Shown: in pieces, positions 44,700 through 45,103 of the stretch
Position numbering within the stretch: the first letter of the stretch is position 1
Layout of the letters: every line of letters starts with the position of its first letter
Source of the DNA: a virus
Strand: one strand, 5' to 3'
Virus record (IMG/VR): IMGVR_UViG_3300025117_000094
Location: 1 to 48,719 of that record
Length of the DNA stretch: 48,719 bases
The notes under the pieces: generated by a model
The model's database searches: none
Seen by the model: only the letters and a program-made list of their open reading frames with translations
Told to the model about the DNA's origin: nothing
Program-made: the position numbers and the translations under genes

Positions 44700-45103
44700 T
44701 TGGTGGTGAAGCTTTGGATGCTTATAATTCCCCCCCCTATAAGGGATAGAGATATAAAATCACTTATAAGGGAGAGTTATAAGCTGAAAAGTATATCATC
44801 GTATGGAGCCAGCCCCATCAGCTTGCATTTAAAAATGCACGTATGAGCTATTAATTGCTTAATAGCTAGTCACCTACGGTATGCCTTTACTAACCTGAAG
44901 TTGCTTGTGACGAAGCTTCTTCACATACGTATAATCCAGAATGAAATCTCTCTCATTCTCACGACGGGATTATCGAGGACAGGTTTGAATGTTTTCTAGA
45001 GCGACCCTGCGACCGCTGCATCTACTCTAAATCAGAGTATCTAGATGATGTCTCACTCAAATTACTCTAGATGTAAAATGGTCCTATGAATGTCACTTGC
45101 TGA
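44700..45103 (-). ncRNA. Candidate structured noncoding RNA
   Basis: About 400 bases with no convincing gene, 41% GC in the 300 bases 44761-45060 (124 counted) against about 30% around it. Strong hairpins: ATAATCC/GGATTAT around AGAATGA/TCATTCT (44919-44981 area), AGCTATTA/TAATAGCT (44845-44866 area), CTTATAA/TTATAAG, TACTCT/AGAGTA. ACGTATG and CATACGT can pair over long range. Two helices contain G-U pairs only if the minus strand is transcribed. Ends are uncertain; it may be the leader of the 44250 gene. Large phage RNA classes (GOLLD, ROOL) look similar in size, but I cannot confirm. Confidence 0.5.

Follow-up and report, generated by a model that had tools for sequence, protein, structure and literature searches.

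Phage T4 redirects the RNA polymerase of its host by means of AsiA/MotA and gp55, and to our knowledge the known phage takeovers act on the sigma-70 polymerase, or bring in a sigma factor or a polymerase of the phage itself. In the open-access literature, which leaves most subscription journals outside, we found no published phage that uses the bacterial sigma-54 promoter system. In bacteria, the promoters of this system (-24/-12 promoters) have a TGGCAC-N5-TTGC core whose GG and GC elements are held at strict spacing. Most activators of the system have a C-terminal helix-turn-helix (HTH), which some type Ic activators do not have, family membership being possible without it (PMC3162934). Type Ic activators (about 4% of activators) are known in bacteria and lack the signal domain, the DNA-binding domain or both, CtcC and FlgR being without the DNA-binding domain and FleT without either (PMC3162934). 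Among noncoding RNAs, GOLLD, ROOL and OLE are long, highly structured and gene-free (PMC12286853). GOLLD and ROOL belong to phages and prophages, often in the neighbourhood of tRNA islands. The length of GOLLD is above 800 nt in many members, and its level goes up during phage lysis (PMC12286853).

Here we describe a locus that recalls both kinds of system, in a window that consists of a single IMG/VR virus record (48,719 nt), which may be a fragment. We hypothesise, and give the idea an even chance, that this phage uses an activator of its own to fire the host sigma-54 polymerase at a pair of tandem promoters, from which a folded noncoding RNA would be made, either alone or at the head of an operon. 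As in T4, the takeover of host transcription would be stage-specific, with the difference that the target would be the host sigma-54 holoenzyme. Of our two results, the sigma-54 programme driven by a phage activator is better founded and less expected than the structured RNA.

Sigma-54-type sites on one strand of the window

The window has a GC content of 32%, and its gene-rich coding strand is the minus strand, which carries a replication module comprising ribonucleotide reductase, a fusion of polA with a uracil-DNA-glycosylase domain, a primase-helicase, a processivity factor, a clamp loader, UvsX, SbcC/SbcD, a vWA protein and an RlaP-like nucleotidyltransferase. We counted the sites that keep GG and GC and match the TGGCAC-N5-TTGC core at 9 or more of its 10 bases; over the whole window the minus strand has 11 of them and the plus strand has none, compared with a mean of 0.1-0.2 in shuffled sequence. 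The minus-strand enrichment was seen only at a spacer of 5, any other spacer from 0 to 12 giving 0-1 sites. Nine sites lie within coding sequence, where 0.25 are expected under codon shuffling within genes, and five of the coding-sequence sites are exact (0.017 expected); none of 300 codon shuffles reached the observed number. The GG and GC elements are thus found at fixed spacing in a TGGCAC/TTGC context, as in bacterial -24/-12 promoters, from which the sites differ in forming a one-strand set spread over a phage record. The sigma-54 identity proposed for the sites upstream of the segment in the preliminary description gains strong support from this genome-wide, one-strand and spacing-specific enrichment, together with the presence of an activator gene in the window.

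The only intergenic sites are the tandem pair at 45206 and 45129, which lie 77 bp apart on the minus strand, directly upstream of the structured segment, where two promoter-like sites had been noticed before. The putative distal promoter (TGGCACAGTACTTGCAGG; 45189-45206) matches the core at 10 of 10 bases and has a predicted start at 45180, and the proximal one (TGGCATGAGGATTGCAGG; 45112-45129) matches at 9 of 10 with a predicted start at 45103; TTGCAGGTAAT is common to both. Between them lies an inverted repeat with perfect 9-bp arms, TACCAAATT-N10-AATTTGGTA (45134-45161), possibly a regulator site or an RNA hairpin of the longer transcript.

Elsewhere on the minus strand, the sites at 7798-7815 (10/10 core), 20177-20194 (9/10) and 31389-31406 (9/10) have predicted starts 32, 77 and 108 nt before the next gene, respectively, and for those at 7563 and 42540 the predicted start is the start codon of the next gene itself, the function of the latter (42523-42540; 10/10 core, at a gene start) being uncertain. 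Since the predicted starts of these five other sites fall 0-108 nt before a gene, a long structured leader would be special to the tandem pair. The sites at 48561, 32845 and 24089 lie deep within genes, the last at the position of the activator's conserved LLARYLHEIS motif, and are doubtful as promoters.

A phage-encoded activator without a DNA-binding domain

The gene at 23458-24255 on the minus strand encodes a predicted AAA+ sigma-54 activator of 265 aa, with a match to PF00158 at 206.6 bits (cut-off 20.2) and to the lid family PF25601 at 60.4 bits. Its GAFTGA loop is intact (ELFGYEKGAFTGATKRS), and its closest PDB structure is NtrC1 (1ny6, E 8e-67). We found neither a receiver domain nor a helix-turn-helix in this protein, which has no match to an HTH family; it is without HTH since it ends at the AAA lid. 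The AAA+ core and the GAFTGA loop are features it has in common with the type Ic activators CtcC, FlgR and FleT, and as in FleT both the signal domain and the DNA-binding domain are missing (PMC3162934). Unlike these three, which are bacterial, the activator of the window is encoded by a phage. No sigma-54 factor was found encoded in the window, which may belong to a longer genome, and the sigma-54 used would therefore be that of the host.

The minus strand also encodes, at 24185-24511, a protein of 108 aa in which a PEP-CTERM sorting motif is found (VPEPASILLLGTG); its gene is directly upstream of the activator gene and overlaps it. Bacterial PEP-CTERM genes that depend on RpoN have been reported (PMC9850573), and the presence of such a protein next to the activator is a possible clue to the host.

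A gene-free segment with a strand-biased fold

The gap that follows the tandem promoters is bounded by the end of an ORF at 45283 and by an ATG at 44591, and no credible gene was found in it on either strand. Its only 60-aa ORF runs from 45104 to 45286 on the plus strand and covers both promoters. Within 44700-45103 the longest open stretch of a frame is 18-50 codons, and each frame has 4-15 stops, in agreement with the earlier observation that the segment has no credible reading frames. The GC island of about 400 bases that had been described is likewise there, at a measured 40.3% GC in 44700-45103 against 32% in the window and 19% in the adjoining 109 bases (44591-44699), an AT-rich spacer on the minus strand that separates the predicted RNA from the next gene and contains a direct repeat of 22 nt. 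The composition boundary at 44700 is sharp.

Folding of the predicted transcript (45103-44719, minus strand) gave -118.4 kcal/mol, with a z score of -4.75 and a centroid of -109.7, compared with -103.8 kcal/mol, z -3.27 and a centroid of -81.9 for the plus strand of the same stretch; the minus fold is therefore better by 14.6 kcal/mol and its centroid much better defined. Among 100 shuffles none folded as well on either strand. For 44690-45110 the z scores were -4.39 (minus) and -3.88 (plus). In a 200-nt fold scan of the minus strand over the whole window, 44701-44900 ranked 2 of 486, and the gap 45283-44591 has the highest structure per base among the gene gaps of the window. Values of z near -4 in single-sequence folds are also reached in a few other 200-nt stretches, and the other top-scoring ones include the tRNA-Leu and 15501-15800, the only stretch with a stronger z, in which a perfect 13-bp hairpin (ACTCCATGCTCT/AGAGCATGGAGT) lies on the minus strand between two small genes (15601-15800). 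The G-U pairs favour the minus strand, as had been noted: the 3' hairpin has three of them in its stem of 14 pairs, and on the plus strand these three become A-C mismatches. The folding energy, the bias towards one strand and the direction of the promoters all support the claim that a structured RNA would be made from the minus strand.

The predicted RNA has about 385 nt (44719-45103, minus strand) and no ORF. In the model, a CAGC at +2 pairs with a GCUG near 44820 and encloses everything from the 5' domain through a small hairpin at 44839-44824. The 5' domain (44976-45085) has two hairpins and is closed by AGGAC/GUCCU, with pair probabilities of 0.78-0.90, and is followed by a bulged hairpin (44931-44973) whose outer stem AUAAUCC/GGAUUAU reaches a probability of 0.63 and whose inner stem AGAAUGAGA/UUUCAUUCU reaches 0.98. 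Next comes a multibranch domain (44839-44930), present in both the minimum-free-energy structure and the centroid, which is closed at long range by ACGUAUG (44930-44924) and CAUACGU (44845-44839), a helix in competition with other pairings, and which contains a perfect 9-bp hairpin, AGCUAUUAA/UUAAUAGCU, at 0.97. Outside the CAGC/GCUG enclosure stands a long 3' hairpin of 65 nt (44720-44784) with a G8 run, 8+14+3 pairs, pair probabilities of 0.96-1.00 and the three minus-specific G-U pairs. The stems and the long-range pairing reported in the preliminary description were thus recovered, several local hairpins being firm in the model at probabilities of 0.9-1.0; the global fold is provisional, because competing pairings come close in energy to the long-range helices. 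We also considered a tRNA-like or tmRNA-like 3' end (..CACCACCA), for which neither ARAGORN nor Rfam returned anything.

No Rfam family was matched at gathering score anywhere in the window, and for the segment at E up to 10 we obtained only unrelated snoRNA and microRNA matches at chance level. The suggestion that the segment could belong to the large ornate RNAs of phages found no support, the Rfam models including GOLLD and ROOL being matched at neither gathering nor lax cut-offs. The candidate resembles GOLLD, ROOL and OLE in being long, highly structured and gene-free (PMC12286853), and differs from them in its length of 385 nt, in having no Rfam match and in having no homologs found. It differs from GOLLD and ROOL also in its surroundings, with no tRNA island alongside (the sole tRNA of the window, tRNA-Leu at 4403-4489, is 40 kb from the segment) and with sigma-54-type promoters preceding it. 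As it neither matches the models nor has a tRNA island next to it, we do not file it with GOLLD and ROOL, although it might work in a similar way. No further copy of the segment was found within the window, and no DNA relative of the RNA in phages, in plasmids or in records linked to the window by one shared protein; scanning IMG/VR for exact 16-mers of the RNA gave one match, without flanking similarity. Searches by way of the HD, RlaP, vWA, SbcC and activator proteins returned only remote relatives with little or no gene content in common. As a prediction, the structured RNA, which has no known relatives, is sound.

Proposed mechanism and alternative explanations

In the mechanism that we propose, the activator would most likely be made first and, having neither sensor nor DNA-binding domain, this minimal protein would, from solution, remodel the sigma-54 holoenzyme bound at the phage promoters, so that a second set of genes is opened. 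An upstream enhancer site would probably not be needed, since the activator has no DNA-binding domain. The tandem promoters would transcribe leftwards, giving an RNA of 385 nt from the proximal start or of about 460 nt from the distal one, and this RNA would fold into several domains within a closed structure, with the long stable hairpin at its end. It would most likely accumulate as a stand-alone molecule with a putative role in trans, its 3' end set or protected by the last hairpin, and read-through across the AT-rich spacer would feed the operon of small proteins that begins at 44591. The promoter step of this scheme is well supported by the sequence.

The first gene of that operon (44250-44591, minus strand) encodes a protein of 113 aa without a family and starts with the ATG at 44591, which has an AGGAG upstream. 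It is quite possible, at a probability clearly below even, that the segment is a long structured 5' leader of this operon, the fold governing stability, elongation or translation of the mRNA. Segment and operon run in the same direction, no terminator or U-tract is seen past the last hairpin (44720-44784), and the start of the gene lies 128 nt beyond the RNA behind a good ribosome site. Against such a leader, we saw neither terminator/antiterminator alternatives nor a sequestered ribosome site, the site lying in open AT-rich sequence, and the composition changes sharply at 44700; moreover, the other sigma-54 sites have no leader of this kind. We slightly favour a stand-alone RNA over a leader, given the sharp composition boundary, the long hairpin at the 3' end and a predicted fold that is closed from +2 onwards, and given that the other promoter-proximal sites run directly into genes.

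An unlikely alternative is that the structure is incidental, made of chance stems in ordinary intergenic DNA or in a decayed gene, with the sigma-54 motif unrelated to it. The candidate is a single sequence without homologs, and z scores near -4 do occur in a few other places, as one would expect in that case; the strand-biased z of -4.75, the rank of the gap as the most structured of the window, a GC content well above that of the flanks and two consensus promoters immediately 5' all speak against it.

Some phage origins join a promoter with an AT-rich stretch, and the segment might similarly be a replication origin, in which the tandem promoters give a structured primer or R-loop transcript beside an AT-rich unwinding element (44591-44699). 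The 19% GC spacer with its direct repeat does adjoin a promoter-driven transcript and the replication gene region, but the GC skew does not change there, a minus-strand G-U bias fits folded RNA and not DNA, and a multi-domain RNA would be superfluous for an origin, so that we regard this possibility as improbable.

Returning to the folded RNA under sigma-54 control, a broader proposition follows, which we hold tentatively and at somewhat less than even confidence, namely that in a phage lineage a part of the infection programme depends on the host sigma-54 polymerase, by way of a free-standing phage activator, and has among its products a dedicated structured RNA of a new class, made from tandem promoters. 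If true, the activator alone would open sigma-54 promoters whatever the signals of the host, and phage gene expression would hinge on the sigma-54 of the host, providing a rule for host range and timing. An activator gene together with one-strand TGGCAC-N5-TTGC sites could serve as a signature for finding more such phages, and the RNA candidate comes with a start predicted to the base.

Sigma-54-type elements in other viral records

Of 49 viral records with the vWA protein in common, none has a PF00158 match, and each has at most 3 sites matching TGGCAYNNNNNTTGCW, compared with 7 here on a single strand. The activator matches in the phage collection look like bacterial contigs filed as phage for the most part. 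Two other groups of IMG/VR contigs (L244/L245 and L247-L251) encode activators of 241-247 aa without HTH (PF00158 at 187.9 and 149.5 bits; genes at L244:969-1694 and L247:2556-3299, for instance) in a gene cluster with phage replication genes. In these contigs a sigma-54-like site (TGGCATGATTCTTGCT; TGGCACGATTCCTGCT) follows about 40 or 155 nt past the activator gene, a position that is kept across diverged genomes. Since two other phage groups pair an HTH-less activator with a downstream sigma-54-like site, their sequences suggest that this pairing is a recurring mode of phage regulation.

Phage MT121960 encodes a GAFTGA activator of 304 aa without an HTH family match (L238:22349-23263), and no sigma-54 site above threshold was found in it; its gap at 32402-32828 contains tRNAs and was set aside. 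The matches listed for the tandem sigma-54 pattern in IMG/VR are of mixed kinds, with repeats in coding sequence and arrays of 26-28 bp in activator-less contigs among them, and we do not count them as support. Groups of 4-6 sigma-54-type sites, intergenic and often spaced by 26-28 or 47 bp, were seen in L172:5481-5564, L145:1663-1840 and L167:2935-3091, and also in L140, L170 and L123; several of these contigs have terminase or portal genes, and an activator gene is absent from the record. Such arrays in activator-less contigs might serve as promoters, act as decoys for sigma-54 or be iterons. That the TGGCAC-N5-TTGC sites of the window bind another protein, a phage repressor or the recogniser of an iteron-type motif, would fit these related-looking arrays and the location of some window sites inside genes, and has little probability in view of the exact -24/-12 consensus and spacing, the agreement of strand with gene direction and the activator gene in the same genome.

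Some further features of the window were noted. Upstream of the RNA, on the minus strand, lie genes for an HD-domain protein related to tRNA nucleotidyltransferase and for the RlaP-like nucleotidyltransferase (45604-46113 and 47041-47991), and because similar HD-domain and RlaP-like genes stand together in another record (L002), this arrangement suggests an RNA-repair neighbourhood. The large subunit of ribonucleotide reductase (8447-11152, minus) contains an in-frame LAGLIDADG domain at residues of about 433-521, probably an intein. Four endonuclease genes (37267-38157, 30385-31272, 18677-19597 and 46124-46969, all minus), of which three are HNH with similar family profiles and one is LAGLIDADG, are dispersed among the replication genes and are likely homing endonucleases.
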